28,382 bases of DNA. Origin: a virus. The notes under the pieces are model-generated. The model ran no database searches. It saw nothing but the letters and a program-made list of their open reading frames with translations, and was not told where the DNA came from. Of the stretch, positions 3,259-24,714 are shown one piece after another (the first letter of the stretch is position 1; each line of letters starts with the position of its first letter). A program made the position numbers and the translations under genes. Location of the stretch: positions 1 to 28,382 of IMG/VR virus record IMGVR_UViG_3300031215_000056. One strand, 5' to 3'.

Positions 3259-3690
3259 TTAGAATTTTGTGAGTCGCGAGATTTGGAGGCGGCCGCCGGT
3301 GAGGCGGTAGGTGTGCTCGGTGCGGGAGCCTTTGATGTTGGAATCTTGGATCTCGATAAATGGGGTCGTCAGGTAACGGACGGCTCCGTTGTTTAGGGTG
3401 ACTTCGCAGACCATGTCATCGGCGGTGGGCAGGTCGGCTGGGTGGAGGATTAAAAAATCTTGCGCGCTCTCGATGTCGAGATGCTCCCGCCAGACCGTAA
3501 ATGAGCCCTGCCAAGTCACGTTGCCGCGATTAAAAATTTTGGCGGTGTCCGCGCGGAGGAAAGAAACTGTCTCTAGGATAGGGCCGCCTGCGACACGTAA
3601 ACCGGACGGGCCGCGCGCCTCGACGGGCCCACCGACGCCGAGGGCGACGAAGGTGGGCGATCCAGTTTTCGTAAAGCGGACGGATTTCAT
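3259..3690 (-). CDS. Hypothetical tail protein
   Basis: A 143-residue protein lying between the tail-tube-like gene and the baseplate-type gene, in the same direction. It is beta-rich, with a conserved-looking core FTVWREHLDIESAQDFLILH and a C-terminus rich in Arg, Thr and Gly. There is no signal peptide, membrane segment or recognised enzyme motif. Size and position would suit a tail-completion, tail-terminator or tail-tube-associated protein, but this is context only. The start at 3690 is the only good ATG. It has no Shine-Dalgarno, and a heptanucleotide repeat tract (3700-3734) lies directly upstream. Confidence 0.7.
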   Translation of the reverse strand: MKSVRFTKTGSPTFVALGVGGPVEARGPSGLRVAGGPILETVSFLRADTAKIFNRGNVTWQGSFTVWREHLDIESAQDFLILHPADLPTADDMVCEVTLNNGAVRYLTTPFIEIQDSNIKGSRTEHTYRLTGGRLQISRLTKF

Positions 3691-3699
3691 AATTCAACA

Positions 3700-3734
3700 A
3701 TGACTAATTGATAATTACTAATGACTAATCATTG
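3700..3734. repeat. Degenerate heptanucleotide tandem repeat downstream of tail-tube gene
   Basis: Five 7-bp units read in order ATGACTA, ATTGATA, ATTACTA, ATGACTA, ATCATTG. The tract fills the gap between the tail-tube-like gene stop (3739) and the next start (3690). It is AT-rich in a GC-rich region and belongs to the short tandem heptamer type known from intergenic DNA of some bacteria. Confidence 0.65.
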
Positions 3735-3738
3735 AGAG

Positions 3739-4653
3739 CTAGGCGACTACTCCGACTGAGAAAAGGGCATCGTTGTCTCCGGTAGTTTGGCGGCGGGCGG
3801 TGCGGAATGTGAGCGCCTGAGTGCGGTAGGTGTCGCTGCCGTATGCGTAGCCGCCCGGCTCGGCAGAGCAGTCTTGTAGGACTACGGAGGGGTCGCCGGT
3901 GGCACCGCCCGCGATGGTGAGATCGTAGCGAGCGGCCTCTTTGCCGATGCCACCGCCAAACCCGATGAGGGTGGTCAGGGCGCTTTCGGCCATGGCTGGC
4001 GGGATGAATGTGGCGCTCACCCGCAGATCTTGCAGCGCCATGCCGACGATGCCGAGGCCGTCGATGCGATTTTCGGAGAGCGTCATATCAAAACTGATCG
4101 TGTAGCCCTCGCTACTGTGGTAGGTCGCGCCGTTATAGCTAGCGGTGTAGGCCGCGTTTAGGACCTTGGTGAGATCGAGGCCGGTGAGTGATGCGCCAGT
4201 GGCATCGGTGCCAAAGGCCAGGTAACTGGCTAGGGCGTCGACGTCGCTTTCGTTTGCGATCAGGCAGGTGATGGTCATCTCGCCAAATTGGCTGCCGCTG
4301 CCGGAGAGCAAAATATCGGACATCGATGTGATGGCGGCATTGGAAAACGTGATAGGGAAGCCAGTTGTCGGCGTGAGCACGGCGGCGGCGTCAGCTGCTC
4401 CGAAAATGTCGGTGCCGATGGTTGTGCTGGCATAAGGGAAGAGCACGGAGAGATTATCCCACTGTGTGGGGGTGCCGGAGATCTCAACTGTCTTGCCGAT
4501 GAGCAACTCTTTGACGATGCCAAAAGCATCGATCATGCGAGTCTCTTTCTCCATGTTGAGATTTACGGTGAGGCCGTTTTCAAAGAAAAAGGAGCCGCCG
4601 TCGAGTGTGAGTGAGGCGGGACCTTTGCGAATGGTTGAGCGATCGATGGACAT
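3739..4653 (-). CDS. Phage major tail tube protein-like
   Basis: A 304-residue, strongly beta-rich protein with low Cys and Trp content and many Thr, Ala and Gly residues, typical of virion tube subunits. Alternating hydrophobic strands are visible (PASLTLDGGSFFF, TVNLNMEKETRMID, KELLIGKTVEISG, EMTITCLIANESD). The duplicated strand pattern around 60-170 and 190-300 matches the two-sheet fold of long-tail tube proteins. It lies after the tail-terminator-like genes and before the tail-tip genes, which is the expected slot. No contractile sheath gene is seen next to it, so a non-contractile tail is inferred. It is flanked on both sides by heptamer repeat tracts. An alternative reading is a generic beta-sandwich tail protein. 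Confidence 0.65.
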   Translation of the reverse strand: MSIDRSTIRKGPASLTLDGGSFFFENGLTVNLNMEKETRMIDAFGIVKELLIGKTVEISGTPTQWDNLSVLFPYASTTIGTDIFGAADAAAVLTPTTGFPITFSNAAITSMSDILLSGSGSQFGEMTITCLIANESDVDALASYLAFGTDATGASLTGLDLTKVLNAAYTASYNGATYHSSEGYTISFDMTLSENRIDGLGIVGMALQDLRVSATFIPPAMAESALTTLIGFGGGIGKEAARYDLTIAGGATGDPSVVLQDCSAEPGGYAYGSDTYRTQALTFRTARRQTTGDNDALFSVGVVA

Positions 4654-4662
4654 AATATTTTA

Positions 4663-4703
4663 GAATTAAGAATTAAGAATTAGGAATGAAGAATGGAGAA
4701 TTG
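4663..4703. repeat. Heptanucleotide tandem repeat upstream of tail-tube gene
   Basis: Consecutive 7-bp units are GAATTAA, GAATTAA, GAATTAG, GAATGAA, GAATGGA and a partial GAATTG. The tract lies between the small gene ending at 4720 and the tail-tube start at 4653. Its sequence differs from the tract at 3700-3734 but the period is the same. Confidence 0.8.
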
Positions 4704-4719
4704 TGTATGGATGACAGTC

Positions 4720-4896
4720 CTAGGAAGCTTTGGGCTTGCCTGCGGATTCGGCGACTTGCGCGGCGTGGGCGGCTTGGCGTTTGGCTTCGCGGTCTTTGAG
4801 CGTCTTGGCGTCGGCTTCGTGTTGGGTTGCGGCTTTTTCGCAGAGGGCTTTGTTTGGATCCTCGGCGATGGCGGGAGTTGGTTTTGCTGGTTTCAT
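4720..4896 (-). CDS. Small charged helical protein in tail cluster
   Basis: A 58-residue frame from the ATG at 4894-4896 to a TAG at 4720-4722. It begins MKPAKPTPAIAEDPNK and continues as a charged, Ala/Lys-rich helix with no hydrophobic segment. Third codon positions are GC-rich, as in the neighbouring genes. It fits a gap that would otherwise be about 280 bp of empty DNA in a tightly packed operon. Its position between tail-terminator and tail-tube genes resembles the small linker genes of Mu-like phages, but no function can be assigned. An overlapping rightward frame in the same interval looks like a shadow. Confidence 0.6.
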   Translation of the reverse strand: MKPAKPTPAIAEDPNKALCEKAATQHEADAKTLKDREAKRQAAHAAQVAESAGKPKAS

Positions 4897-5405: not shown

Positions 5406-5990
5406 CTAGTTGGTCTGTCTGGCGATGTAGTCCTGAGCGGCCTCGACGAGGGCGCGGCCTGACTCGGCCTCGGTGGGGAGGGCGGTGGGATCTTTGGGCA
5501 CGGTGACTTTGGGCGTGAGAAAGTAAAAAAATCTTAGGGAGTCGTCGCCTTGCGATTGGACCAGGAAGCCGCCGGGCTTGCTGCCTTTGCGCGGGATAAA
5601 AAAGAGATTAGGCACGGTGCCCGCTGAGGCGCGGACGCCGTAAACGGACTCGTCCATGGGGATGGCTAGGAATTTACTGCGGCGCGGGGTGATGGTGGCA
5701 CCGTAGATTTTTGCCGCGATGGCGGGATCGCCGATGGCGATGGTGGCGTTGCTGGTAGTGGCTCCGGTGTAGGAGGTGGCGCGTCGGATGCGCGCCCAGA
5801 AGTTTGTCTTCTTCCATCCGCGCTTGTTGGGCTTTTGGTTTTTGCGCAGGAAATGGCGATGCAGGGTTTGTTCATGGGTTTTTCCTAGCACTTGCATGAG
5901 GCCCTGGCGGCGGGGGCCGTCCACGGTGGAGGCGAGCCGGGCAAGTTCGGCTTGGGTCGCTTCGTCTGTGACTGTGATTTTTGATTTCAA
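5406..5990 (-). CDS. Phage virion morphogenesis / tail completion protein (Mu gpG-like)
   Basis: A 194-residue protein with a basic N-terminal half: a helix with QGLMQVLGKTHEQTLHRHF and a conserved-type KRGWKKTNFWARIRRAT segment. It then has short strands (ATIAIGDPAIAAKIYG, GATITPRRSKFLAIPM) and a C-terminal helix (ALVEAAQDYIARQ). This pattern matches the virion morphogenesis proteins (Mu gpG, P2 gpS-like tail completion) needed for head-tail joining. The best start is a TTG at 5988-5990; no ATG is available until residue 32. A GATC-repeat element (6018-6048) lies just upstream. Confidence 0.75.
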   Translation of the reverse strand: MKSKITVTDEATQAELARLASTVDGPRRQGLMQVLGKTHEQTLHRHFLRKNQKPNKRGWKKTNFWARIRRATSYTGATTSNATIAIGDPAIAAKIYGATITPRRSKFLAIPMDESVYGVRASAGTVPNLFFIPRKGSKPGGFLVQSQGDDSLRFFYFLTPKVTVPKDPTALPTEAESGRALVEAAQDYIARQTN

Positions 5991-6017
5991 AAGGTTTGGA
6001 GGTGGGAAGGTTTCGAG

Positions 6018-6048
6018 GATCGGTCGGATCAGACTGATCGGACTGATC
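6018..6048. repeat. GATC 9-bp repeat element, copy 1
   Basis: Four GATC tetramers occur exactly 9 bp apart (6018, 6027, 6036, 6045) with five-base spacers GGTCG, AGACT, GGACT. The two halves (6018-6030 and 6036-6048) form an imperfect inverted repeat with a 5-base loop. The element lies between the minor head gene and the virion-morphogenesis gene. Confidence 0.85.
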
Positions 6049-6058
6049 TTTTATTTTG

Positions 6059-6853
6059 CTAGGTGAGTGAGGCTTTTAGACCTTGGATGACTACGCCGGG
6101 AAAGAGGGTTTTGAGGGTATCGATCATGCCGGGGTTGAGGCCTCGGATGCTTTGCTGGTTGGCGGCGTTGTAGCTGGGGTCGGCTGAGGGTTGCGGTGCG
6201 GGATCGTCTGCGGTGATGACGCCGAGGGCGATGGCTTCGCGGCGGCTAATGGCAGCGACGCCCATGCCGCTCCCGAAATTGAATGGGGGATAGGGGCGAC
6301 CGAATCGGCTGATCGCTATCCAGATCGGTGCGTTGACCAGGGCGATCATGCGGCCGCCGTATAGGGTGCCGCCGTTGGCTGACCAAATGCTATTCCAGTC
6401 GCGGCGCTCTTCGCGGCCTTCGACGCGGATCAGCTCTTGGGCGGGGAATGCTTCGAGAAGCTCGGGAGTTTGCTGGGCTTTGTGCCTGCCAAACGAGGTG
6501 GCCTCCTCCATTTGGAAATCGTAGATTAACTCTAAGCGGCGGCGGCTAGTGATGTCGGTTAGGGCACCAGAGTCTCCGGGAGCGGCGCCGAGGTTTTTGC
6601 GCATGTCGGAGACGAAGCGAGACCGATCGGCAAAGGCGTCTGCCGGGTTGAGCGTGAGCGCCTCATCGAGGATGCCCTGCATGTCGGAGAGAGTGCGCAT
6701 CTCGGTGATCGTCGAGGAGAAAAACGCGCGGTCCGTGATCTCGCTCGGCACCTCTGCCCACTGCGCTGAGTTCAAGGCCGAGGCAACCGGCGTCTTGGAG
6801 CCCAGGCGGTCGACGGCGTCGGCGAAGGGAGCTATGTTGGCGTTTAGTTTCAT
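6059..6853 (-). CDS. Phage minor head / head morphogenesis protein (Mu gpF-like)
   Basis: A 264-residue protein. The N-terminal half is helical and charged. The core around 110-160 reads like the DFQMEEATSFGRHKAQQTPE segment typical of minor head proteins, followed by EELIR/ERRDW. The segment around 175-200 (APIWIAISRFGRPYPPF) corresponds to the part that in many gpF proteins holds a Cys-containing motif; here the cysteines are absent. The gene follows dam by 3 bp and is probably translated with it. In Mu the F gene lies next to the portal, whereas here it lies downstream of the capsid gene, so its identity is less certain than that of the terminase or portal. Confidence 0.7.
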   Translation of the reverse strand: MKLNANIAPFADAVDRLGSKTPVASALNSAQWAEVPSEITDRAFFSSTITEMRTLSDMQGILDEALTLNPADAFADRSRFVSDMRKNLGAAPGDSGALTDITSRRRLELIYDFQMEEATSFGRHKAQQTPELLEAFPAQELIRVEGREERRDWNSIWSANGGTLYGGRMIALVNAPIWIAISRFGRPYPPFNFGSGMGVAAISRREAIALGVITADDPAPQPSADPSYNAANQQSIRGLNPGMIDTLKTLFPGVVIQGLKASLT

Positions 6854-6856
6854 GGG

Positions 6857-7630
6857 TTAAAAACTGGTGGCAATTAACTCTGAGAATCTAGAAGAGGAGG
6901 CTTTGATTGAGGCGGTGGTTTGCAGGTGCTTTTTGATGTAGCCATGCAGCAGGTCGCGCGTCTCGGCAGAGTCGTTTAGCGTGAGTATCCAGTGGCCTTT
7001 GATCTTTTTTAGCGCGGCGATTAGGTCGCTGGCTTGTTCGATGGTCCAAGCGGTGTATCCGACTGACTTAGACTTGGGAGCAACGTAAGGCGGATCTAAA
7101 AAGAAGAGGGTCTCGGGCGAGTCGTAATTTTTTAGCATGCGCTCCCATGAGATGTTTTCGATCATTACTCGGTCGAGCCGCTGAGATGCGTTGAGTAAGG
7201 CTTGCTGCTTGTTTATTAGAGAGGTTGTAGCTCCCCCCTTCGATAAGATTGTAACGCCGTAAGAGTCATTATTGCCCCCGAAGCTAAGCGTATTAATAAA
7301 AATATAATCGGCGGCGCGTTGGACTTCAGTTCGGGTGCCTTTCTCGTCGCGGGCTTCGTAAAAATCAGCGCGAGAATTGATGCGGAAATCAAGCTCGGCG
7401 CAGACGGCATCGGCATGGTAGCGCACTTGCTTAAACGCGTTGGAAAGCTCGCCATCGAGATCGTTGTAGCACTCAACCTTGCTGCGCTCTTTGCCAAAGA
7501 GCACGGCTGCCCCGCCGCCGAATACTTCGCAGTAGAGCGTGTGCGGCTGCGAGGCAATCAGCGGGAGCAGGTGCTTGAGTAGGCGACTCTTGCCCCCGGC
7601 GCGGCTGATAAATGGTTTAGGTTTTGGCAT
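6857..7630 (-). CDS. dam: Dam-family DNA adenine N6-methyltransferase
   Basis: A 257-residue class D12 (Dam-type) methyltransferase that transfers a methyl group from S-adenosylmethionine to adenine N6. The FISRAGGKSRL start (residues 7-17) and the VFGGGAAVLF motif (36-45) bind the cofactor. NDLDGELSNAFKQVR (56-70) is the usual acidic motif and LDPPY (178-182) is the catalytic DPPY motif. Length is close to that of Dam enzymes. The family often methylates GATC, but specificity cannot be read from the motifs alone. It is inserted between the connector gene and the minor head gene, in the same direction. A four-GATC repeat element (7644-7674) lies 13 bp before its start, suggesting possible autoregulation (inference). 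It could protect the phage from restriction, as other phage methylases do. Confidence 0.92.
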   Translation of the reverse strand: MPKPKPFISRAGGKSRLLKHLLPLIASQPHTLYCEVFGGGAAVLFGKERSKVECYNDLDGELSNAFKQVRYHADAVCAELDFRINSRADFYEARDEKGTRTEVQRAADYIFINTLSFGGNNDSYGVTILSKGGATTSLINKQQALLNASQRLDRVMIENISWERMLKNYDSPETLFFLDPPYVAPKSKSVGYTAWTIEQASDLIAALKKIKGHWILTLNDSAETRDLLHGYIKKHLQTTASIKASSSRFSELIATSF

Positions 7631-7643
7631 GTGCTTTTTTTTT

Positions 7644-7674
7644 GATCGGACTGATCGGACAGATCAGTCGGATG
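7644..7674. repeat. GATC 9-bp repeat element, copy 2, upstream of dam
   Basis: Units GATCGGACT, GATCGGACA, GATCAGTCG and a final GATG lie 9 bp apart (7644, 7653, 7662, 7671). The halves pair imperfectly around a GGACA loop. The element fills most of the gap between the connector gene stop (7687) and the dam start (7630). Confidence 0.85.
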
Positions 7675-7686
7675 TTTTTTGATTGG

Positions 7687-8148
7687 TTAGAGGCCGTTTA
7701 GGTCATCGTGACGGATTGGGTTTTCGCGCTTGGTTGCGACTTGGATGCGGCCGCTGGAGCCTTGGTCGGTGGGCGTGGTCTGGGGGTCGGTGGGCGCGGC
7801 GACGGTGTAATCACAGGCGGCGATCATCTTGAGGAGCTTGCGGGCGTTTTCGGCGGCGGCTTTTTGATCGTCGCTTAGTTTTAGTTTTAGCCTGGGCTGG
7901 GCGGCCTCTATAATTAGGGCGACGGCGTGGCGGCGTAACTCGGGCGGAATGGCGTTGGGTGTGATGCTGAGGATGTTGGTCGAGCAGCTGCGGATGTAAT
8001 TGCGGACCTCGGCGGAGATGTCGGCGATGGCCTCAGTGACTGGATCGCTCTGACCGGCGGAGAGCGCGGCGGTGCGGAGGGCGTTGACTTGGGCGCCGAC
8101 GAGATAGTCGGCGACGTCGTCTATGGTGAGTGTGATCCAGGCTGGCAT
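7687..8148 (-). CDS. Head-tail connector protein (DUF1320 / Mu gp36-like)
   Basis: A 153-residue, mostly helical protein. It opens MPAWITLTIDDVADYL, followed by a helical stretch with EVRNYIRSC, then PPELRRHAVALIIEAAQPRL and a disordered, Asp/Thr/Gln-rich C-terminus. The short N-terminal strand followed by a helical bundle with an RxYI and LRRxA-type core is the usual pattern of gp36/DUF1320 adaptor proteins that dock under the portal. It lies directly after the major capsid gene, which is the expected place. GATC-repeat elements lie on both sides. Confidence 0.75.
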   Translation of the reverse strand: MPAWITLTIDDVADYLVGAQVNALRTAALSAGQSDPVTEAIADISAEVRNYIRSCSTNILSITPNAIPPELRRHAVALIIEAAQPRLKLKLSDDQKAAAENARKLLKMIAACDYTVAAPTDPQTTPTDQGSSGRIQVATKRENPIRHDDLNGL

Positions 8149-8166
8149 GATATGTCGTTTGGGAGT

Positions 8167-8197
8167 GATCGGTCGGATTGGTCTGATCTGACCGATC
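8167..8197. repeat. GATC 9-bp repeat element, copy 3
   Basis: Units start at 8167 (GATC), 8176 (GATT, one base changed), 8185 (GATC) and 8194 (GATC), again 9 bp apart. Left half 8167-8179 and right half 8185-8197 pair with two mismatches around a GGTCT loop. It lies between the capsid gene stop and the connector gene start, in a 120-bp gap that also holds weaker inverted repeats. Confidence 0.85.
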
Positions 8198-8269
8198 TGT
8201 GAAAGTTTGAAAACAGTCGCGTGATTGGATCCGGAATGCGCGTCCCTCCGGGTTTATTATGGCTAGAAT

Positions 8270-9247
8270 CTAGCTAGCAGACACGGTGTGCTTGCGGATG
8301 CCGAGCGTGCTGGTGATCTTGATCTTGCTCTTGTGAGCGAGGGTGATCTCGACCTTGCGGGCGAACTCCTGCCGGTAGACCATAACGCTTTGTCCACCTG
8401 TCAGCGCGAGGAAACGCTTGATGTTGGAGGGGTCGTCTTTGCTGACGCCGCTAGCGGCGTTATACATCAGCACCTTGCTGCCGAGGAATGTGGCGAGGCC
8501 ACTGGATCCACGGTAGCGGCTCTCGCGGTAGGCGAGCGCGTTGACCATGAGGAAATCGGCCAACTCATCGGGCGTCATCTTGGCGCTGGCGTAACCGCCA
8601 GCGTTGTCTTGTGCCCGATAGGCTTTTTGGCGCAGTGCCCAGGCGGCAGACCCGTAGATGACATTCGTGGGGCGCACCCCGCTGGTATTTTCTGCGGTGA
8701 GTAGTGTGTCGGAGACAAACTGATCGGGATCAGTTGCAGTGGCATAGACCTTGGCCTCGTTGGTGGCAGCGGCATCGAGCAAGCCAAATGCGCGGCGGAT
8801 TTCTGTGCGAAACAGTATGCGACGGAGGCGGTCGACGGCCTTCTCTTCGGCGTCGGGATCGGCTTCGATCTCGCGAGCATCGACCACGATGACTAAGCCC
8901 TTTTCGTCGAGTTGCTCATTGACCTCGTCTTGGCGTCCGGTGTCGAGGCGCCCGAAATCGCCGCCCATGGCGCGGATATCTTCATCGCCCTCGAGGCGTT
9001 GAAAATAGTCTGCGTGTTGAGCCGTCTTGTAATTAAATCGCTCAGGCACTGTGACGGCGGGCGAGAGAAACTCGAGCAGCTCTTGGAGGGGATCGCTATC
9101 CCAACCGCCGACCGCGTAGTTTGCGAGTGGCTCGCTGCTAAAGGCAGACTCGAAGCGGCTGGCGTTGGCCATCGCTGCGTAGACTTGCCCGATTTGCCCG
9201 TCGCCTGGACGGCACTCGGGAAGAATTAAATCTAGGTTATCTTTCAT
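8270..9247 (-). CDS. Major capsid protein
   Basis: A 325-residue protein of the HK97-fold major head type. The N-terminal arm (1-60) is followed by ERFNYKTAQHADYF and a central GLVIVVDAREIEADPDAEEKAVDRLRR (shown here only as landmarks near 115-145) giving the strand and spine helix. A conserved-type segment ending VIYGSAAWALRQ (near 195-206) and a P-domain ending with strand KIKITSTLGIR follow. There is no delta domain or protease site inside the frame. It lies after the decoration protein gene, matching the scaffold, decoration, capsid, connector order of transposable siphophages. Start by ATG without Shine-Dalgarno. Confidence 0.85.
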   Translation of the reverse strand: MKDNLDLILPECRPGDGQIGQVYAAMANASRFESAFSSEPLANYAVGGWDSDPLQELLEFLSPAVTVPERFNYKTAQHADYFQRLEGDEDIRAMGGDFGRLDTGRQDEVNEQLDEKGLVIVVDAREIEADPDAEEKAVDRLRRILFRTEIRRAFGLLDAAATNEAKVYATATDPDQFVSDTLLTAENTSGVRPTNVIYGSAAWALRQKAYRAQDNAGGYASAKMTPDELADFLMVNALAYRESRYRGSSGLATFLGSKVLMYNAASGVSKDDPSNIKRFLALTGGQSVMVYRQEFARKVEITLAHKSKIKITSTLGIRKHTVSAS

Positions 9248-9300
9248 AATTTTTGGATCTTTGAATTTTTTTAATTGGTGAGTGGGAACGTAGCCGCCTC

Positions 9301-9804
9301 TTATTCAGAGACTACGGTTGCGATGGGGAAGCAGGGATCGACCTCGACCTCTTCGCCATCGGCTGCTGCGGTGAGCGCGGTGCCGATGAGGTAGTAGGTG
9401 CCGGAGGCGACTGGTAGGTCTTGGACTTGGCCAGCTGCTGCGGTAAATACGTCTTCGCCGATCACGATGTCGCCACTAGCTGTGAGGACTGCGGTATTGG
9501 GCGAGGTGCCGAGCAGTGCGACTGGGATCGTCGTATCGATCAGGGCGGTGTCTTCGATCCAGCCGATGGGCTTATCGCTTGCGCCGTTGATGAGCACCTC
9601 GTTTGACGCGGTGCCGGGTTTGACGAGCACGTGGGCGGCGGTAAACGCTGCCTCAGCGTAGCGAGTGATGCTTCCGGCATGGGAGCTGACTGTGCCAGCG
9701 ACGACGTTGGCCATGATAGCCGTATGCCCGACGATGCCGCGAACGGTGTCGATCATAGTGAGCGCCACGAAGGCGAGGAGTTGGATGATTGGATTTTTTT
9801 TCAT
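9301..9804 (-). CDS. Capsid decoration/stabilisation protein
   Basis: A 167-residue, Ala/Thr-rich beta protein. From MANVVAGTVSSHAGSITRYA onward it matches the style of head decoration proteins: VLVKPGTASNEVLI, then KPIGWIEDTALI, then a repeated ASGDIVIGEDVF and EVEVDPCFPIATV end. It is placed just before the major capsid gene. The first 30 residues (MKKNPIIQLLAFVALTM...) are hydrophobic and absent from typical family members. An internal ATG at 9712-9714 (residue 31) would give the usual start. The extension has GC-rich third positions, so it may be translated. Confidence 0.75.
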   Translation of the reverse strand: MKKNPIIQLLAFVALTMIDTVRGIVGHTAIMANVVAGTVSSHAGSITRYAEAAFTAAHVLVKPGTASNEVLINGASDKPIGWIEDTALIDTTIPVALLGTSPNTAVLTASGDIVIGEDVFTAAAGQVQDLPVASGTYYLIGTALTAAADGEEVEVDPCFPIATVVSE

Positions 9805-9848
9805 GATGATTTTCTTTGAGCGATTATTTATTTGTGATTGTGATTTGG

Positions 9849-9863
9849 TGTCTAAATTAGACA
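9849..9863. promoter_or_regulatory. Perfect 15-bp palindrome in intergenic gap
   Basis: TGTCTAA and TTAGACA flank a single central A. The element lies between the stop of the small coiled-coil gene (9876) and the decoration protein start (9804), in an AT-rich leader. It is large enough for a dimeric DNA-binding protein; as RNA the 1-base centre would disfavour a hairpin. Function unknown. Confidence 0.4.
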
Positions 9864-9875
9864 GGGCGATTTGGG

Positions 9876-10124
9876 TTACTTTTTGGCGGCGGCGTCGGCG
9901 CGCACCTGAGCTACTTGAGCCTCGATGGCTTGGGCGCGGTCGAGACCAGCGGCGATCTTGGCTTTGATTTCCTTGGCGTAGCGCGTTTGGAATGCGTTTG
10001 CGGCGTCGGCCAGTTGCACGCCGTTGCTGGCTGCGGGTGCAGCCTTGAGGGCGTCGAGCTCGGTTTTGAGAGCGGCGTTCTCAGCGATAAGAGCGTCGAG
10101 TTGATCTTGTTCTTTTTTGTTCAT
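9876..10124 (-). CDS. Small coiled-coil protein in head cluster
   Basis: An 82-residue, highly charged protein. Residues 3-30 form a heptad-patterned coiled coil (LDALIAENAALKTELDALK), then an Asn/Ala linker and a second amphipathic helix ending DAAAKK. It contains no Cys, Trp or membrane segment. It lies between the protease-scaffold gene and the decoration protein. This position and shape would suit a head assembly cofactor or an accessory scaffold, but there is no family evidence. A perfect GATC hairpin element lies upstream (10158-10188). Confidence 0.65.
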   Translation of the reverse strand: MNKKEQDQLDALIAENAALKTELDALKAAPAASNGVQLADAANAFQTRYAKEIKAKIAAGLDRAQAIEAQVAQVRADAAAKK

Positions 10125-10157
10125 GATTTTTTTTTAGGTGATTGTTTGTTGGATTAG

Positions 10158-10188
10158 GATCGGTCGGATCGGACTGATCCGACCGATC
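10158..10188. repeat. GATC 9-bp repeat element, copy 4 (perfect hairpin)
   Basis: GATC occurs at 10158, 10167, 10176 and 10185. Arms 10158-10170 (GATCGGTCGGATC) and 10176-10188 are exact reverse complements around a 5-base GGACT loop. It lies between the stop of the protease-scaffold gene (10204) and the next start (10124). No U-tract follows on either strand, so a simple intrinsic terminator is unlikely; mRNA processing, attenuation or protein binding are possible. Confidence 0.9.
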
Positions 10189-10203
10189 AGGAATGCGGAT
10201 CGA

Positions 10204-10938
10204 CTACTCGGCAGACTCGCTCATCTGATTGAGCAGCTCTTGACCCTCGGCGGTTTTCTTAAACTTAAAATACGCCGTTGGATAATCGGCCTTGAGGTCG
10301 ATCCCTTTGGCGTTTGCGAAGTCCTCTAACTTGCGGTTGAAGGTGTTGCGAGCGTTGGCCATGTCTTGCATCTCGCCTTTGCGCTTACCGACGCCGTCGA
10401 CGACGCTGCCGGTGGGCAAGGCTGCTTCGGCCTTTTCGAGGTCGGCGATGGCGTTTGCCATATCAGCGGACTCGGTGAGCTGCGTGATGGTGGCGACGCG
10501 GTCGGCCTCGGGGAGGCGGCCTGCTTCGATGGCGTTTTCCACAACGAGGGTGGCGTGTGCCTGGCGCGCATTGGCGAGATCGGCGGTGAGTGCGGTGACG
10601 CGCTCTTGCTCAGTGGTGAGTGCGGCCTGTGCGGTAGTGAGGCTTTCGTTGGCCTGATCGGCGGTGCCGAAGGCAGCGGTCATCTTGGTGACTAGATCGT
10701 CGATGGATGGAGCGGCGGCTCCGTCTTCGCGCAGGCCGTCGATCTGCTCATCGGTATAGCCGAGCGCTCGCATGAGTGCGATTTGTAGATCGAAGTAGCC
10801 GTTAGCGGCATCGAGCTGAGCGCCGAGACGTGTCTCGATCTCAGTGGTTTCGGGAGCGCCCTCTGCCGAGTTCGCGAAAGCGGTGATTTGTGCTTCGGAG
10901 AAACCGAGGCGTTGCATTATCTTCTGGATCCAGTTCAT
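10204..10938 (-). CDS. Candidate nested scaffold (Mu Z-like) from internal start
   Basis: In-frame ATG at 10936-10938 inside the protease gene would give a 244-residue protein starting MNWIQKIMQRLGFSEAQ. The start falls at the boundary between the protease domain and the helical scaffold, just after a low-complexity linker (SRPHQTATHEN). The upstream bases are A-rich, as at most starts in this window. In Mu, gene Z is nested in the same way. This is an inference; no Shine-Dalgarno is seen. Confidence 0.35.
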   Translation of the reverse strand: MNWIQKIMQRLGFSEAQITAFANSAEGAPETTEIETRLGAQLDAANGYFDLQIALMRALGYTDEQIDGLREDGAAAPSIDDLVTKMTAAFGTADQANESLTTAQAALTTEQERVTALTADLANARQAHATLVVENAIEAGRLPEADRVATITQLTESADMANAIADLEKAEAALPTGSVVDGVGKRKGEMQDMANARNTFNRKLEDFANAKGIDLKADYPTAYFKFKKTAEGQELLNQMSESAE

Positions 10939-11694
10939 ATTTTCGTGGGTTGCGGTTTGATGAGGGCGGCTATTAGCAGCACAGCCCATGATGTTTGGCG
11001 TGGGCGTGAGCCCCGCGGAGATGAGTTTAAAGGGGCGCCATATGCGTTTACTGCCATCGCGGCCACTGAGCGCGGCCACCCAGCGGGGCGACCAGTAGAG
11101 TTTTTCTCCGGAGGCGAGGAGCTCGTTGCCCGCATCCTTCCAGTCGGGCTTGACGTAGATGCCATCGCTACGGGTCTCGATGGCGGTGATCTCTCCCTGG
11201 AGGGTAAAGTTGTCGTGGCCGTTGGCCGAAAATACGGGGTGATCGGGGTGGCCTTCGTAGATGGGGCGGTGCCCATTACTAAAAGCGCGCACGATGACGC
11301 TGTTGGCTAAATCGAAACGGCGCACGATGGCATCGCTGGCCTCGGCATCGACGACTTGGATATCGCCATCGCGGCCATAGGGGTGGCGACCGAAGGGTGT
11401 GAGGCGATAAAAACCGTCTTCGCCACGCGCACCGATCTCGATGGCATTCGCCAGGCATTCCACTTTTGCACCGAGTTGAGTCTCGTCTGTGCCGAGGGCT
11501 TCCCACTCGCTGATTTCGTCGATCTCCGGCACTTCGTTGGCAAAATCTGCCAGTGTCGTTGGCGTGTTAATCCGAGACCCTTTTGCAAATCGCCGCAAAG
11601 TTATTGCAAAATCGTTTACGCGAGAGATGCGGCTCAATACGTAATCCATAACGTCGCGGCCTTTGTAGGGCATTCTGTGGCTTTTAGTTTTCAT
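10204..11694 (-). CDS. Head maturation protease with C-terminal scaffold (Mu I/Z-like)
   Basis: A 496-residue fusion-type protein. Residues about 85-240 match the Mu gpI protease style: IYEGHPDHPVF (145-155), GEITAIETRSDGIYVKPDW (167-185), a GEKLYWSPRWVA segment (196-207) and FKLISAGLTPTPNI (222-235). Residues about 255-496 are helical, Ala/Glu/Leu-rich and coiled-coil, typical of scaffolding that is cut away during head maturation. An N-terminal stretch of about 85 residues precedes the protease. In Mu the scaffold Z is also made from an internal start within I. Here Met253 (ATG at 10936-10938, MNWIQKIMQRLGF) is a candidate for the same arrangement. It lies after the portal gene by 11 bp. 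Confidence 0.85.
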   Translation of the reverse strand: MKTKSHRMPYKGRDVMDYVLSRISRVNDFAITLRRFAKGSRINTPTTLADFANEVPEIDEISEWEALGTDETQLGAKVECLANAIEIGARGEDGFYRLTPFGRHPYGRDGDIQVVDAEASDAIVRRFDLANSVIVRAFSNGHRPIYEGHPDHPVFSANGHDNFTLQGEITAIETRSDGIYVKPDWKDAGNELLASGEKLYWSPRWVAALSGRDGSKRIWRPFKLISAGLTPTPNIMGCAANSRPHQTATHENMNWIQKIMQRLGFSEAQITAFANSAEGAPETTEIETRLGAQLDAANGYFDLQIALMRALGYTDEQIDGLREDGAAAPSIDDLVTKMTAAFGTADQANESLTTAQAALTTEQERVTALTADLANARQAHATLVVENAIEAGRLPEADRVATITQLTESADMANAIADLEKAEAALPTGSVVDGVGKRKGEMQDMANARNTFNRKLEDFANAKGIDLKADYPTAYFKFKKTAEGQELLNQMSESAE

Positions 11695-11705
11695 GGCAGA
11701 TTTGA

Positions 11706-13277
11706 TTATTTAATTGAGTCCAAAGTAGTGGGAGCATCCTGCTCCCTAATTGTATCTGCCTGGGAGCTGGAAGCTCCGGCTACTACGGCGGTGCCGAGGG
11801 CGGCTTCGAGGAGTTGCGCGTAGGCGGATTGTGCGGGGTCGATCTCGCGCTCACGTAGGGCGGTGGCGAAGGCTTCGAGCGCGTCGACATACTCTTCGGG
11901 CGTGGGGGCTGCTTCGACGGCGGCGAGGAGTGGTTGTAGATCGGCAAAGTCTTCGGCGAGCGCTTGTGCGATCTGGGAGACTTCTTCATTGCTGGCGTTG
12001 GCCATGTCAGTGGCTGCGGGATTTTTAGGCGCGGGGTTTTTCTCGGGTGGGGTGAGCACGGCATCTTTAGTCCGCTCACCTGTGCCGACGATATTAAGCC
12101 TCTCACAATAATCGGCCTGATCGATGGGGACGCCGTAATCGGCGGCGGCGTGGAGTTTGTCCTGCTCAGCCTTTTCATCTTGGCGGTCCGGGGCGGTGAG
12201 CTTAAATGAGCATAGCGGTTTTACCTCGTTGCCAAATTTCCAGCGCAAAGCGGGCAGGCTCAGGGCGTGCTCGAGGGTCTCATTGATCATCTCGATATCG
12301 TCCTCGACCAGGAGGTCGCTCTCATCCTGTTGCAGGCTGGCACCCATCCCATCCTTGCTACTCATGGTGGAGAGGTCGGCACCGCGCCAAAGCATGGCGA
12401 GGGCGCGATCCATGCGCTCGACGAGTTGGGGCATCGGTAGCTCGCCACTAACAGTCATGTCGTGGATGCTTATCTCAGAGCCTCGGCTGTGCTGCATGGC
12501 AAACTCTTGCGCGATGCTTTTGAGGGCCTCGATGCCGTCATCCCACTCTTTAGAGCCATAGGCTGCATCGGTGGCGTTAGCGACAAACGGCATCCCGCAC
12601 CGCCCGGAATATACGAGCCAGTCCTTGAGAGGTAAATGTTTAAACATATAGGCGACGAGCGACGCCACCATTAGGCCGTCGCCACAAGTGACCATCCAGC
12701 GGAGTGGCTCCAGCTCGACGCCATGCAGCTGGCCCGCCGACTGTAAAAAGCGTAGCTCGCCATCGGTGGCCTCGAAAAACCAGAGCGGAGTAAATGTGAG
12801 CGATGCGGTCAGTGAGCCATCGCGGCCAGGCAACCAGCTGATATTATGCACCGCATACTCTTTGCCGATGGCATCGGCCATCTGGTAGATCATTTTGCGC
12901 ACGCCGCCGCGCACGTTGCGTTTGAGCGCGTGAGTAGTCGTCAGCCGATTGTAAAAATCCTCTAAGAATTCCTTTTGCGCTTCTAGCTGAGCAGCCGTGC
13001 CGAGATTTTCCCACGACTCATAAGCTACGATGTCATACTCCTGGCGACTTAGACCTTTTTTTCGTTTGGGCGCGACAGTCTGGAGCATGTCGTCGGTGCG
13101 CTCGACCTTATCCATCATCCACGCAGCATCGCGCAGGATACCACGGTCGAACTGCTCAAGCATCGTGACTATACGTTGCGGCGTGAGGTTCTTGATCGGG
13201 CTAAACCGCGATTGGATCTCGTAGCGCACACGTGCAGCGGTCACTGCCGGGGCTTGGTCTTTAGGTAATTGAGTCAT
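11706..13277 (-). CDS. Portal protein (DUF935, Mu gp29-like)
   Basis: A 523-residue protein of the Mu-like portal family, forming the dodecameric ring through which DNA enters and leaves the head. The N-terminal region reads NLTPQRIVTMLEQFDRGIL and AAWMMDKVERTDDML. A central KEYAVHNISWLPGRDGS, FFEATDGELRFLQ and GLMVASLVAYMFKHLPLKDW follow. The SKEWDDGIEALKSIAQEFAM and LAMLWRGADLSTMSSKD segments are typical of DUF935. A C-terminal tail of about 120 residues is acidic and helical (PLLAAVEAAPTPEEYVDALE). The gene starts 6 bp after the terminase stop, giving the standard terminase-portal pair. Confidence 0.9.
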   Translation of the reverse strand: MTQLPKDQAPAVTAARVRYEIQSRFSPIKNLTPQRIVTMLEQFDRGILRDAAWMMDKVERTDDMLQTVAPKRKKGLSRQEYDIVAYESWENLGTAAQLEAQKEFLEDFYNRLTTTHALKRNVRGGVRKMIYQMADAIGKEYAVHNISWLPGRDGSLTASLTFTPLWFFEATDGELRFLQSAGQLHGVELEPLRWMVTCGDGLMVASLVAYMFKHLPLKDWLVYSGRCGMPFVANATDAAYGSKEWDDGIEALKSIAQEFAMQHSRGSEISIHDMTVSGELPMPQLVERMDRALAMLWRGADLSTMSSKDGMGASLQQDESDLLVEDDIEMINETLEHALSLPALRWKFGNEVKPLCSFKLTAPDRQDEKAEQDKLHAAADYGVPIDQADYCERLNIVGTGERTKDAVLTPPEKNPAPKNPAATDMANASNEEVSQIAQALAEDFADLQPLLAAVEAAPTPEEYVDALEAFATALREREIDPAQSAYAQLLEAALGTAVVAGASSSQADTIREQDAPTTLDSIK

Positions 13278-13283
13278 GGGGTG

Positions 13284-14822
13284 CTAAAAGTTGCGGCGTG
13301 AGGAGGCACCGGCTGTGCCAGTGCCGGAAAAGTGAGTGGGGCCGCCGGAGGTCTTGCCTGCGTGCATCATCAGGGCCAGCGCCCAGAATCTGTCGGCGTG
13401 TGAGTCGCCCTCATTGTCTTCGTCTTCGGCGACGTAGCGGACTTTGTCGCCCACGGTCTCCTTTTTGATCATGCGTAGATCGGTCTCGAAGAGGTCATCA
13501 TCCGGCACGCGGATCGAGCGATCCTCGAAGGCGGTGCGCACGGGCGGTGCGAGCATTTGCTTATTACCAGGCGTAAAGGTCACGCCTTCGACGCGCCAAT
13601 CGCCAAACTTCTCGGCGGCGCGCTCGGCAAACTGCATCCCGATCCCCGTCTCGTCCACGCAACTGCGGGACATAGAGGGCATCAGCGGGTAAAGGATCGC
13701 CTCCTGGCGCGAGAAGGCGCAGCGGTCGAACTCGATCACGCAGCGCACGAAGAGCATGCCGTCGCGCTTCTCACCGATCACATCGACCGAGAGGTCATGG
13801 CGCCGGGCTACGTCTTTGCCGTGGTAGAGGTCGCCGCCATCGGCTTTGACCTTTTTGATATAGGCGAGCAGGCCAGCAGGCTCGACACCCTTGGGGAGTA
13901 GATAGCGGATGCGACCCTTCTTCCCGCGAAAGTCCGTCGTCTCCTCAGTATGCGCGACGAGGTTATCCTCCGGAGTGTAGTAGCTGCCTTGTAAGAGATC
14001 GTAAGGCAGATACACGCTGGATTCGTCCTCGGGCTGGCACTCATACTCCTGGAGGAAGCGCTCGTCAGTCGAGGCGCGGCGCTTCAAGTAGTCGTAATAC
14101 TCGGCCTCGTCCATCGCCATGCGTGGATCGGATTCGGGTAAAACCGTTTGCAGCTTCCAAAGGAAAAACTGATCGAGCGCATCGCTGAGCGTGACCCGGT
14201 GGATTGATAGGCCGCGATGCTTGCGCGTGTCGGTGTCGCGCTCGTCGGTGATCAGCTTGTTAAAAAAGTTCTTCGCGCCCCGGTGCGTGGAGATAATCGA
14301 GAGGCGACCGCCCCAGTCGATAGTCGGCTGTGCGATATCGTAAACATGCCGTGGATCGTTACGCAGCGCGAACTCGTCGAGGCCGACATTGCCACCCTTA
14401 CCCGCAAACACATCAGGGTTTGAGGAGATCGAGTTGATCGTGGTATCGGTGGCGAAGCGGAGCACGCGAGCGGTCGCTGAGTCCTTACCATCGTTAAAGA
14501 GGATCGCCTCATCGTAGGCGTTGGCCGCTAGATTAAGGACCCCTGCAAACTTCTTGCAGTAGTTGATAAAGCCCTGCGCGGTGAGGTCATCGCGGCTACT
14601 AAACCACGTATCGACCTTGCAGCCTTTGAGTGACTTCTGCCGGACTTCGTCGTAAGCCGTGGCGTAGCTGATGCCGACGCGGCGGCTCTTTTCCATCACG
14701 CGGACCAGTGAGCGGTCATTGACCCAGCGCGCTTGATACGGCAGCAAGAACGTATCCCGATCGGGGATGTTCTTCGCACGGCCGCGAAAGCTCTTAGCGT
14801 GATCTGGGAGTCGGTTGGCCAT
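13284..14822 (-). CDS. Terminase large subunit (Mu gp28-like)
   Basis: A 512-residue DNA-packaging motor. ATPase domain: an adenine-binding LLPYQARWVND region (26-36), a divergent Walker A KSRRVGIS (45-52), a Walker B ending in VGLDE (146-150) and a coupling motif ISTHRG (177-182). The nuclease domain of RNase H fold has acidic residues Asp343 (HDLSVDVIG), Asp390 (SCVDETGIG) and Asp477 (HADRFWALAL). Length fits gp28. Transposable phages package by headful from integrated copies, with host DNA at the ends, so this enzyme cuts near the prophage end and then at head filling. It follows the small subunit gene by 3 bp. Confidence 0.92.
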   Translation of the reverse strand: MANRLPDHAKSFRGRAKNIPDRDTFLLPYQARWVNDRSLVRVMEKSRRVGISYATAYDEVRQKSLKGCKVDTWFSSRDDLTAQGFINYCKKFAGVLNLAANAYDEAILFNDGKDSATARVLRFATDTTINSISSNPDVFAGKGGNVGLDEFALRNDPRHVYDIAQPTIDWGGRLSIISTHRGAKNFFNKLITDERDTDTRKHRGLSIHRVTLSDALDQFFLWKLQTVLPESDPRMAMDEAEYYDYLKRRASTDERFLQEYECQPEDESSVYLPYDLLQGSYYTPEDNLVAHTEETTDFRGKKGRIRYLLPKGVEPAGLLAYIKKVKADGGDLYHGKDVARRHDLSVDVIGEKRDGMLFVRCVIEFDRCAFSRQEAILYPLMPSMSRSCVDETGIGMQFAERAAEKFGDWRVEGVTFTPGNKQMLAPPVRTAFEDRSIRVPDDDLFETDLRMIKKETVGDKVRYVAEDEDNEGDSHADRFWALALMMHAGKTSGGPTHFSGTGTAGASSRRNF

Positions 14823-21294: not shown

Positions 21295-21456
21295 ATGACC
21301 GTCACACTCCTCATCACCATCACACTCACCATCCTAGCCGCCGTGCTAGTCGCCACACTCACGCTAGCCTCCATGCTACTCGCCGAGGAGGCAAACGACC
21401 GCCGCGACCGCCGCGACCGCGCCCACCGCCTAACCCAAGGCGGCAGCCTCTCCTAG
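21295..21456 (+). CDS. Small single-pass membrane protein
   Basis: 53 residues from the ATG at 21295 to the TAG at 21454-21456. Residues 3-34 are a long hydrophobic, Thr/Leu/Ala-rich segment (VTLLITITLTILAAVLVAT). The C-terminus is polar with an Arg/Asp run (NDRRDRRDRAHRL). GC-rich third positions support coding. The stop codon overlaps the first base of a degenerate GATC-repeat element. Early membrane proteins of transposable phages often act in superinfection exclusion or host modulation; here this is only a possibility. Confidence 0.6.
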   Translation: MTVTLLITITLTILAAVLVATLTLASMLLAEEANDRRDRRDRAHRLTQGGSLS

Positions 21457-21477
21457 ATCCGTCCGATCCATCTGATC
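21456..21477. repeat. Degenerate GATC 9-bp repeat element, early region
   Basis: GATC at 21456, 21465 and 21474, again 9 bp apart, with spacers CGTCC and CATCT. The fourth unit is lost. The stop of the small membrane gene runs into it. Confidence 0.7.
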
Positions 21478-21797: not shown

Positions 21798-22544
21798 ATG
21801 AACACACCCACACCAAAACACAACCTCACCATCGAGATGAGCCGCATCCTGGACCTCACCCTACAGGAGCTACAGATGCGCGAGGAGATCGACCACACTC
21901 ACGTCGACGACCTTAAAGGGCACCTCGACGAGCTGCCCCCGATCACAGTGTTTCAAGACGGGGAGTTTGATCGCTATTTCATTGGCGACGGCTGGCACCG
22001 ATTCCTGGCGCATAAACTGAGCAATAAAAAGCAGATCAAAGCCGACATCCGCCCAGGCGGCAAAGACGCCGCCCTACGCCACTCCCTAGGAGCCAACGCC
22101 GAACACGACGCCCTCCGCCGCACAAATCGCGACAAGCGCAAGGCCGTAAAAATCGCCCTAAAATCGCATAGTGCGATTTTTGGCACCGATAAAATCAAGA
22201 ATGTAGCCGTCGCGGAACTCTGCAAAGTCGCCGAATCATTCGTCCGCAAAGTCCGCAAAGAGCTAGAGATAAAAGCCGACAACCAGCCAACCGAAAGCGG
22301 ATCAACCGGGGGCGAGCCTCCCGCACAAACCGACTTTTTCGCTGAGCTAAACGCCTCTTACAAAACCATTGCAGACGGGTTTAACCAGGTATTAAACCAC
22401 ACCTATTTCATCCGCCCCGACGTTACCAAGGCCGAAAAACTCGCAGCCGTAGCCGACATCCAGCGCGACCTAGCCAACCGCTCCCAGTCCATCAAAGATC
22501 TCAAGGCCAGGCTCGAAGCTCAGGAGGATGCCTCCGGAAAATAA
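21798..22544 (+). CDS. ParB-like nuclease-domain protein in the transposition operon
   Basis: A 248-residue protein. The N-terminal ParB/Srx domain reads LDLTLQELQMREEIDHTHVD (19-38), then LPPITVFQDG (46-55) and YFIGDGWHRFLAH (60-72). The last of these holds the G-D-G-x-H-R-type motif that binds nucleotide (CTP in chromosomal ParB). A second part, ALRHSLGANAEHDALRRTNR (92-111), followed by KAVKIAL, is the typical continuation in phage ParB-like proteins, with an HTH-like helical region after it. The C-terminal part (from about 165) is a helical, Ala-rich domain. It lies directly before the transposase and may act in target choice, DNA condensation or regulation. It shows no centromere-partner ParA. 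Confidence 0.8.
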   Translation: MNTPTPKHNLTIEMSRILDLTLQELQMREEIDHTHVDDLKGHLDELPPITVFQDGEFDRYFIGDGWHRFLAHKLSNKKQIKADIRPGGKDAALRHSLGANAEHDALRRTNRDKRKAVKIALKSHSAIFGTDKIKNVAVAELCKVAESFVRKVRKELEIKADNQPTESGSTGGEPPAQTDFFAELNASYKTIADGFNQVLNHTYFIRPDVTKAEKLAAVADIQRDLANRSQSIKDLKARLEAQEDASGK

Positions 22545-22563
22545 TCATCCTGCCTAAAAAATC

Positions 22564-24714
22564 ATGACACAACTCGCCTCCACCTCCACCCTGCACACCG
22601 CCGCGCTCGACATCGTCTCACAATCAGGCGGGATCGAAGCACTCTTGAATCTGCGCAAACAGGTCGACCGCGACAACGTGCTGCGTAAGGTCGAGGCCAT
22701 GCTCCACATCGAGCACATGCTCGACGATAGCGCACCCCGCAAAACCGCGATTGCCCAAACCGCCATCCGCTACAGCGGTCAGCGCGGATTCTCCACCGCC
22801 AAACTCGCCAGCGACTATCGCCTCTGGGCAAGAGGCGGACAAAAGCCCGGCAGCGACGGCAAACCCACCGGCCATACCTACGCCGCCCGCTCTTGGAAAA
22901 TTTTCCTGCCCAACTATACCAACGGCGATAAATCAGCCGCCCTCAAAAACCACGAATTCACCCGCTACATCCGCACGCTATTCGCCGAGACCTCCCGCGC
23001 CGATGCCACTGGCAACGCCCTGCACGAGCGCCTGCTCGACAACTGGTTTGGCGGTCACGCCATCCCCGGCTACGGCACCATCCAGAAATGGTGCGCCGCC
23101 CAAGGCCGCCCCGTCCCCACTGGCCACCTAGCCCGTGCCCGCGCCGAGAACTTCCCCGGCGGCTGGAGCGCGAATAACCTCCGGCGCATGCTCCCCAGTA
23201 TGCCCACCCGCATCTACCTCCAGCGCGGCGAGCATGCCGCCCACTCACACTGGGGCGATCAGCTCCTACGCGATCGCTCAAAACTCATGCCCTTCCAGAT
23301 GCTCACGTTCGATGATGTTCGTTTCGATCTTAAAGTGATCCAGCCAATGCCAGGCAAAGCCGCGCAAGTCGTCTATCCCGAGGCAATTTTTACGCTCGAC
23401 GTAGCCACTGGCCTGATCCTAGCCAAGGCGGTCGTCGGCACCTACACCCGCGATGCCGACTCAGACGGCGGCAAAAAAGGCACCAAGCGCGCCTTCCAGC
23501 ACGCCGATATGCGCTGGCTCATGGCCAAAGTGATCGAGCAATACGGCCTCCCAAAAGATTGGAAAACGCGCGTCCTCCTCGAGAATGCCTCCGCCTCAAT
23601 GAGCACCGCCGACATTCACACATTCGAACAGTTGACCGGAATCGAGTTTGAAAAAACCGGCTTAATCCGCCAAAAGCTCACGCAATCAGGATTCGTCGAG
23701 CAGGGCGGCATGCCCTGGCAAAAAGGCTGGATCGAGGCTCTATTTCGCCTCGTCCATACCCGCATCAATCACCTACCGGGCACAGTCGGCGCCCGCTACG
23801 ACCTCACCGATGGCCGAATGACCCAGACCGAGCGCTACACGCTCAACACCATCGCCGAGGCTCACCGCAAAGGCATCCCGCTCGACGAGCTAAACCTCCC
23901 GCTCCTCACCATCGATCAATTTCACGGCCTGCTCGACGAGTATGTCCAGCGTCTCAACTGGCGCATCAACCACAACCTCCAAGGGTTCGCCCGCGTCCAT
24001 GAGCTAGAGATCGAGCCAGGCCGCTACATTAGGCACGACGATCCACTCGCCGCCCAGCTAATGACAGTCGGCACCAAGCTCGACTCTCGTATGGAGAGCC
24101 CCGCCGAGCGGTTTAGCCGCCTCATGACAGGCCACGAGATGCAGCCCGCTCACCCCCGCCAGCTCCTGCCACTCAGCCTCGACAAAAAACCCGTCACCGT
24201 CGCCGCCGAGCGCGTGGCCTACAAGCCCAACGGCGAGGACACCATCTATTTCCGCGATCAAAAAACCGCCCAAGCCCTCGCAAAATGGAACGGCCAGAAA
24301 AAAGCCCTCATCGGATTCCTCGCCACCGATCGCAGCGCCATCCACCTGTTTACCAACGATGACAACCTCGAATACATCGGCAGCCCCGCCCGAGTAGGCC
24401 GCGTCGACATCACCGACGAGCACGCCATTCTGAAGCGCAGCGGCGAGGTGCATCGCGGCCGCGAAAATGTCCGCCAATACGCCGCCGACCTCATGGCCGA
24501 TCAAGACGCCACTCACAGCGACATGCGCCAACACAATGCCGACCGCCTAGGCTCAGCCATAGCCACCGCCGAAACCTCAGCCGCCAAAGCCCAGTCCGAC
24601 CGCACCCGCCTCAATAAAATCAGCGACGAAGAAGCCGACGAATACTTCGTGGCGTGTCCGCTCGCGGACGCCCCCGCACCCCAAGACGCCGACCCCGAAG
24701 AATCACCATTTTAA
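22564..24714 (+). CDS. MuA-like DDE transposase
   Basis: A 716-residue transposase. N-terminal region 1-240 holds HTH-like DNA-binding parts (GFSTAKLASDYRLWARGG). The catalytic core begins at LTFDDVRFD (Asp250, matching MuA Asp269). The second acidic position lies in LLENASASM, where Glu340 takes the place of MuA Asp336. QKGWIEALFRLVHTRI supplies Glu391, corresponding to MuA Glu392. The C-terminal 250 residues contain the beta-barrel and end in an acidic, Pro-rich tail. The protein cuts and joins the phage ends to target DNA. It is preceded by a ParB-like gene and followed 44 bp later by B. It carries out integration and replicative transposition together with the B-like ATPase. Confidence 0.92.
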   Translation: MTQLASTSTLHTAALDIVSQSGGIEALLNLRKQVDRDNVLRKVEAMLHIEHMLDDSAPRKTAIAQTAIRYSGQRGFSTAKLASDYRLWARGGQKPGSDGKPTGHTYAARSWKIFLPNYTNGDKSAALKNHEFTRYIRTLFAETSRADATGNALHERLLDNWFGGHAIPGYGTIQKWCAAQGRPVPTGHLARARAENFPGGWSANNLRRMLPSMPTRIYLQRGEHAAHSHWGDQLLRDRSKLMPFQMLTFDDVRFDLKVIQPMPGKAAQVVYPEAIFTLDVATGLILAKAVVGTYTRDADSDGGKKGTKRAFQHADMRWLMAKVIEQYGLPKDWKTRVLLENASASMSTADIHTFEQLTGIEFEKTGLIRQKLTQSGFVEQGGMPWQKGWIEALFRLVHTRINHLPGTVGARYDLTDGRMTQTERYTLNTIAEAHRKGIPLDELNLPLLTIDQFHGLLDEYVQRLNWRINHNLQGFARVHELEIEPGRYIRHDDPLAAQLMTVGTKLDSRMESPAERFSRLMTGHEMQPAHPRQLLPLSLDKKPVTVAAERVAYKPNGEDTIYFRDQKTAQALAKWNGQKKALIGFLATDRSAIHLFTNDDNLEYIGSPARVGRVDITDEHAILKRSGEVHRGRENVRQYAADLMADQDATHSDMRQHNADRLGSAIATAETSAAKAQSDRTRLNKISDEEADEYFVACPLADAPAPQDADPEESPF

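Follow-up and report, generated by a model that had tools for sequence, protein, structure and literature searches.

The 28,382-bp virus record IMGVR_UViG_3300031215_000056, analysed over its whole length and called the window below, carries in its leftward late operon four arrays of a 9-bp unit, GATCNGWCN, that is also abundant in scattered bacterial chromosomes. The window is a Mu-like phage according to its domain hits (Mu portal, Mu-like protease and TniB/MuB-like ATPase). The best reading of the arrays is that they are a degenerate, palindromic, 9-bp variant of the short intergenic tandem repeats, and they probably belong to a family of such repeats that the phage shares with those chromosomes and that is tolerated at gene borders and in linkers.

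A degenerate 9-bp unit in phages and chromosomes

A sequence-only reading of this DNA had described the four elements, with units exactly 9 bp apart and one GATT and one GATG among them, and had placed them between genes only. All of this was borne out, each element falling in a gap of the late operon (Table 1), and we confirmed that the four are real and far above chance. The pattern GATCN5GATCN5GATC, with up to three mismatches, matched the window 50 times compared with 15.4 ± 4.6 in shuffles, and the unit scores of the elements (24–26) compare with a maximum of 12 in 30 order-2 Markov copies of the window. As to the five-base spacers, the proposed length stood but not their freedom: their sequence follows NGWCN, a rule that had been overlooked together with a fifth, shorter copy.

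The unit is GATC-N-G(A/T)C-N, a palindromic pattern, since repeated GATCNGWCN is its own reverse complement. We sampled the rule in random regions chosen regardless of spacer, 400 kb of Oligosphaera ethanolica (G003) and 387 kb of a Myxococcales bin (G010), where 83 of 84 and 89 of 91 spacers between 9-bp-spaced GATCs, respectively, read NGWCN (172/175 together). Over these 175 spacers T never occurred as the first N and A occurred once as the last, while A and T were about equally frequent at W; in several phyla the first N (N1) is likewise seldom T and the last (N2) seldom A. Arrays typically hold three to five GATC units of 9 bp, and N1, W and N2 differ within a single array, with six of the nine positions fixed. 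Among 4-bp palindromes at 9-bp spacing GATC alone reached such numbers in O. ethanolica. In the Myxococcales bin (regions L248-L253 and L256-L271), TCGA at this spacing, three in a row, was also raised (35 vs 64) and may reflect another repeat or a by-product.

The two-spacer pattern was found in 105 stretches of viral contigs and in more than 118 of genomes. Counted per genome as perfect two-spacer matches, with overlapping matches in long arrays included, it occurred 909 times in O. ethanolica, 848 times in the Myxococcales bin, 287 times in a Planctomycetaceae bin, 243 and 167 times in two genomes of the phylum of O. ethanolica, 106 times in an Acidobacteria bin and 88 and 108 times in two Hydrogenedentota bins; a reversed-pattern control gave no match in any genome counted. 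The unit is abundant, then, in scattered chromosomes of Verrucomicrobiota/Lentisphaerae, Planctomycetota, Hydrogenedentota, Acidobacteria and Myxococcales. Within the phylum of O. ethanolica matches were present in 43 of 241 genomes, and most relatives of array-rich genomes had none. Some isolated matches outside these groups, as in Streptomyces, could be due to chance or to repeats in coding sequence. The earlier idea of a host repeat family captured by the phage therefore holds largely, as to kind, because the unit is abundant in bacterial chromosomes. Relatives of the window's portal (32-45% identity) were found in genomes of one phylum. Literature searches with the exact sequences and with GATC/9-bp repeats turned up no account of GATCNGWCN in the open full-text literature, nor was one met with in Rfam, and Rfam and tRNA scans of the window gave no matches.

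We next considered placement relative to genes, for which chromosomal genes were called with a simple caller of our own and viral loci had been fetched for holding the pattern, a choice that biases array densities upwards and affects placement less. All 28 arrays of the O. ethanolica regions and 21 of 30 in the Myxococcales bin were intergenic; random regions of three other genomes (G013, G017 and G002) held one array altogether. In the viral loci 80 of 82 gap arrays lay between co-directional genes, mostly no more than ~16 nt past a stop codon and 10-40 nt ahead of the next start, and about half of all arrays fell in predicted coding DNA. Chromosomal arrays of genome G154 were also found in housekeeping operons, between guanylate kinase and flavoprotein genes and beside an aconitase gene. 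Stop codons showed no clear relation to the reading frame of the array. Predicted coding arrays were in the frame GAT-CNG-WCN (frame A) in 70 of 99 cases; this frame is stop-free on both strands and reads Asp-(Pro/Arg/Gln/Leu)-(Ser/Thr), giving mostly hydrophilic D-x-S/T repeats. At the protease-scaffold junction, in-frame arrays stand in two relatives of the window (L055 5075-5114 and L339 reverse complement 13195-13222), and behind the one in L055 come a Shine-Dalgarno-like sequence and an ATG, a possible internal start of the scaffold.

One exact rule with free positions thus recurs in unrelated phyla and their phages, with up to ~900 matches per genome. It makes the birth and spread of short tandem repeats over bacterial gene borders a testable question, and likewise whether or not phages carry the repeat dialect of their host, which could give a host-linking clue for unplaced phages.

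Gain, loss and companion repeats among related phages

Related loci were compared with the repeats in their flanks masked. Eleven of 12 syntenic Mu-like prophages lacked arrays and one (L339 in G154, C70:112000-131900) had four, at places matching those of L055: one within the protease/scaffold gene and one past it, one ahead of the capsid-like gene and one past that. A sister phage, G260, 93-97% identical to the window across the late operon, has an array-bearing 72-bp stretch that is absent at the same gap of the window, and the related loci L033 and L051 differ by 9 bp in length. The portal gene of L055 contains in-frame arrays at two places, where L339 instead carries a 7-mer repeat, (CGCTCAA)n, that encodes LNAQRVA. 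Mosaic junctions at arrays were seen in two examples, too few for a claim of recombination. The 8.2-kb contig L064/L254 (IMGVR_UViG_3300031329_000095), 99.9% identical to window 5642-13814, is the same phage sampled twice.

The arrays coexist with 7-mers of the same habit. Array-bearing phages had 6-7 periodic gap segments each against 0.03-0.18 after shuffling (6 vs 0.07 expected in the window), and at the same cut-off three prophages without arrays gave no such segment. Two 7-mer segments turned up in a broader sample of eight such prophages, so that 7-mers are not confined to array-bearing phages. Repeats similar to the 7-mers of the window are carried by L339, G254 and G260; in the gaps and the two portal places of L339 they form the families GTTCTTN, ATGGTTR, GAGCGTW and CGCTCAA, several with one preferred variable position. 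Array-bearing chromosomes also hold 6-, 8- and 10-mer families, the 9-mer being dominant in O. ethanolica and the Myxococcales bin.

Table 1. Arrays, other tandem repeats and neighbouring genes in the window.
Feature	Position	Strand	Setting or remark
GATCNGWCN array, 4 GATC units	6018-6048		between minor-head-like gene (6059-6853, -) and gene 5406-5990 (-)
GATCNGWCN array, last unit GATG (7671)	7644-7674		13 nt upstream of dam start codon, 12 nt past stop of gene 7687-8148 (-)
GATCNGWCN array, one GATT (8176)	8167-8197		score reaching 8200; between capsid-like gene (8270-9247, -) and gene 7687-8148 (-)
GATCNGWCN array	10158-10188		between protease/scaffold gene (10204-11694, -) and 82-aa gene 9876-10124 (-)
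Fifth array, shorter, with 3 GATC and one spacer outside the rule	21456-21477		starts at stop codon of early gene 21295-21456 (+)
Putative D12-class adenine DNA methyltransferase (dam)	6857-7630	-	DpnM-like by sequence
Probable major capsid-like gene	8270-9247	-	assigned from position in Mu-like late operon; conserved in syntenic prophages
Mu-like protease/scaffold gene	10204-11694	-	
Mu-like portal gene	11706-13277	-	no array in window; in-frame arrays in relative L055
Degenerate 7-mer tandem repeat (AGAATTA-like)	4659-4708		fills gap between genes 3739-4653 and 4720-4896
Degenerate 7-mer tandem repeat (TAATNAC-like)	3705-3729		gap between genes 3259-3690 and 3739-4653

No array lies between dam and the minor head gene (6854-6856), and we found no Pfam or PHROG match of its own for the capsid-like gene. 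A 54-bp tandem repeat of 2.9 copies at 1970-2126 lies inside a tail-fibre-like gene and is coding, with QSDVDQNESDADTAIAAV-like units.

Origin of the arrays and alternative explanations

To account for these observations, we propose that arrays arise or are acquired at a site and would then change length in 9-bp steps. Slippage is the most likely source of the length changes, and spread would most likely proceed by recombination or template switching aided by self-complementarity. Arrays would persist where they are harmless, that is, in gaps past stop codons and within proteins, where in-frame copies would form hydrophilic linkers. In the late operon they would act at least as intercistronic spacers with modest structure: given the palindromic pattern of the unit, RNA transcribed over the arrays should form weak to moderate hairpins, which may insulate neighbouring genes or affect mRNA decay.

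Several points weigh against such a history of mere tolerance. In unrelated phyla GATC, G, W and C are strict at fixed positions while N is free, a strictness that slippage by itself does not account for and that suggests that a protein or enzyme recognises the unit. The insertion of arrays into the portal, which we infer from L055, concerns at one of the sites a loop whose length varies in all relatives anyway, and among the compared loci no insertion event with target-site detail was caught. Related phages either have arrays or lack them altogether, which implies some trans-acting factor or history. Finally, the viral locus L109 has arrays in six of six gaps of at least 10 nt and L098 in six of eight, and an array in nearly every gap looks purposeful.

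An action at the RNA level was the alternative that survived best, although we consider it unlikely. Here the arrays would be intercistronic hairpins past stop codons that stabilise or separate cistrons as REP/BIME elements do, or would bind a post-transcriptional regulator near the start, as has been proposed for the TAACTGA repeats discussed below. Their position, directly past stops and ahead of Shine-Dalgarno sequences, fits this well, and so does folding. The self-folding claimed for each element was reproduced, with 13-bp arms and a 5-nt loop that are perfect at 10158-10188 and imperfect in the other three; all four fold as RNA with z from -3.8 to -6.1 and better than their own units in random orientation (4/4), and 18 of 19 gap arrays tested folded better than shuffles. 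Across other phages and genomes, however, arm covariation is absent overall and conserved arm complementarity is confined to the four elements of the window. In L098, L109 and L055 the units folded better when randomly oriented than in the arrays themselves. Foldability is thus a consequence of the palindromic unit rather than a feature conserved in general, and we rejected the hairpin as such a feature. Moreover, array orientation relative to transcription is not fixed across phages, and host arrays also lie between convergent or divergent genes and in coding DNA.

A host factor that recognises the unit is conceivable, given the fixed W and a single rule shared by unrelated phyla. Such a factor, conserved over several phyla, might recognise, write or maintain a GATC-N-GWC-N lattice that phages carry to use or satisfy it, a tentative proposal to which we give slightly less weight than to an RNA role. 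Less probable again is the more specific version in which the array binds a DNA-binding protein supplied by the host (an insulator, silencer or stoperator-like protein), each unit being a palindromic site. The strict palindromic pattern, the restriction of W to A or T, the biases at N1 and N2 and the presence of multiple arrays per operon are all consistent with binding, and since our search for a phage-encoded factor found no gene common only to array-bearing phages, a host factor is plausible. On the other hand, no candidate protein emerged, the 9-bp period differs from the DNA helical repeat, and both the long uniform arrays and the in-frame coding arrays resemble slippage products. One candidate was prompted by arrays in or beside coding sequence at L199 and L168; the gene flanks of these loci align with those of L139, which has no array, and the genes at all three presumably encode four-helix-bundle proteins. 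The four-helix-bundle family PF05635 did not discriminate: it was present in 41 of 43 array genomes and 140 of 198 array-free ones, hence in most of the latter too, in a comparison uncorrected for genome size.

Intrinsic transcription terminators are very improbable, and we rejected them: the hairpins are GC-rich and some stand between convergent host genes, but in the window no T-run follows them on the transcribed (-) strand, terminator-like matches in the region are not in excess (7 vs 7.9 in shuffles) and the arrays lie inside a long operon.

The weakest alternative, to which we attach next to no probability, is methylation-controlled, mom-like regulation by the phage Dam. Methylation control had been raised in the sequence-only reading, which noted a layout unlike that of mom, and the GATC sites and the D12 methyltransferase within one operon speak for it; it is contradicted by the sister phage, which keeps all four late arrays without a D12-class gene. 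No D12 gene was found in 35.5 kb of G260, whose dam slot (L320+L321, reverse complement 21830-22702) holds a gene recognised from its sequence as a putative cytosine-C5 methyltransferase, with an array upstream as in the window. In a comparison that covered the D12 family, with other methyltransferase families outside it, no D12 methyltransferase was found in the array-rich phage records G251, G252, G253 and G255 (possibly fragments) or in the array-rich genomes G007, G009, G017 and G023. Otherwise the window has as many GATC sites as expected (220 vs 219.7), and the GWC part of the unit plays no part in Dam recognition. The mom gene of Mu, by contrast, depends on Dam methylation of GATC. For the window, Dam control is thus removed as a false lead; the methyltransferase slot is exchangeable between an adenine D12-type and a C5-cytosine type, and is possibly a counter-restriction cassette.

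Comparison with known repeat systems

Repeats of a comparable kind are the short tandemly repeated repetitive (STRR) sequences of cyanobacteria. The closest description to the arrays is that of the TAACTGA intergenic heptamer direct repeats of Beggiatoaceae, Cyanobacteria and Bacteroidetes, which are sporadic across phyla and whose origin and function are unknown (PMC4679880). In concordance with TAACTGA and STRR repeats, the arrays form head-to-tail sets of a few units, lie mostly between genes and near starts, essential operons included, and sometimes in open reading frames; they are sporadic over distant phyla, change length by whole units and share their gaps with other repeat families. 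The window repeat at 3705-3729 itself resembles TAACTGA-type heptamers (TAATTGA). The arrays differ in that the heptamer is fixed in sequence, whereas the 9-bp GATCNGWCN has three variable positions, is palindromic and strand-symmetric, has a stop-free frame on both strands and is dense in phage late operons.

REP/BIME elements are similar in being extragenic, 20-40 bp long and present in up to hundreds of copies with potential hairpins, in co-directional and convergent gaps and mostly downstream of coding regions (PMC3733652). Unlike them, the arrays are not copies of one consensus and the complementarity of their arms is not conserved. The GTAG/CGTC tag of REP/RAYT was absent from the flanks of the four window elements, and a link to RAYT/Y1 transposases was rejected, as array-rich and array-free genomes showed no difference in Y1_Tnp counts (p 0.75).

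The ESAS/SAS elements of Cluster K mycobacteriophages are also repeated phage elements directly upstream of many starts and include imperfect inverted repeats, but they are unrelated in sequence, consist of fixed 13-bp and 17-bp motifs and belong to one phage cluster (PMC3203893); the window elements lack their 13-bp GGGATAGGAGCCC-type motif, which lies on the 3' side of the 17-bp inverted repeats. Borg elements, which are extrachromosomal, likewise carry tandem repeats in gaps and open reading frames, where in-frame copies give disordered linkers (PMC9879509). Their units are perfect, often longer, vary by place and are virtually absent from the host (PMC9879509), whereas the arrays follow one degenerate rule in different phyla and hosts.

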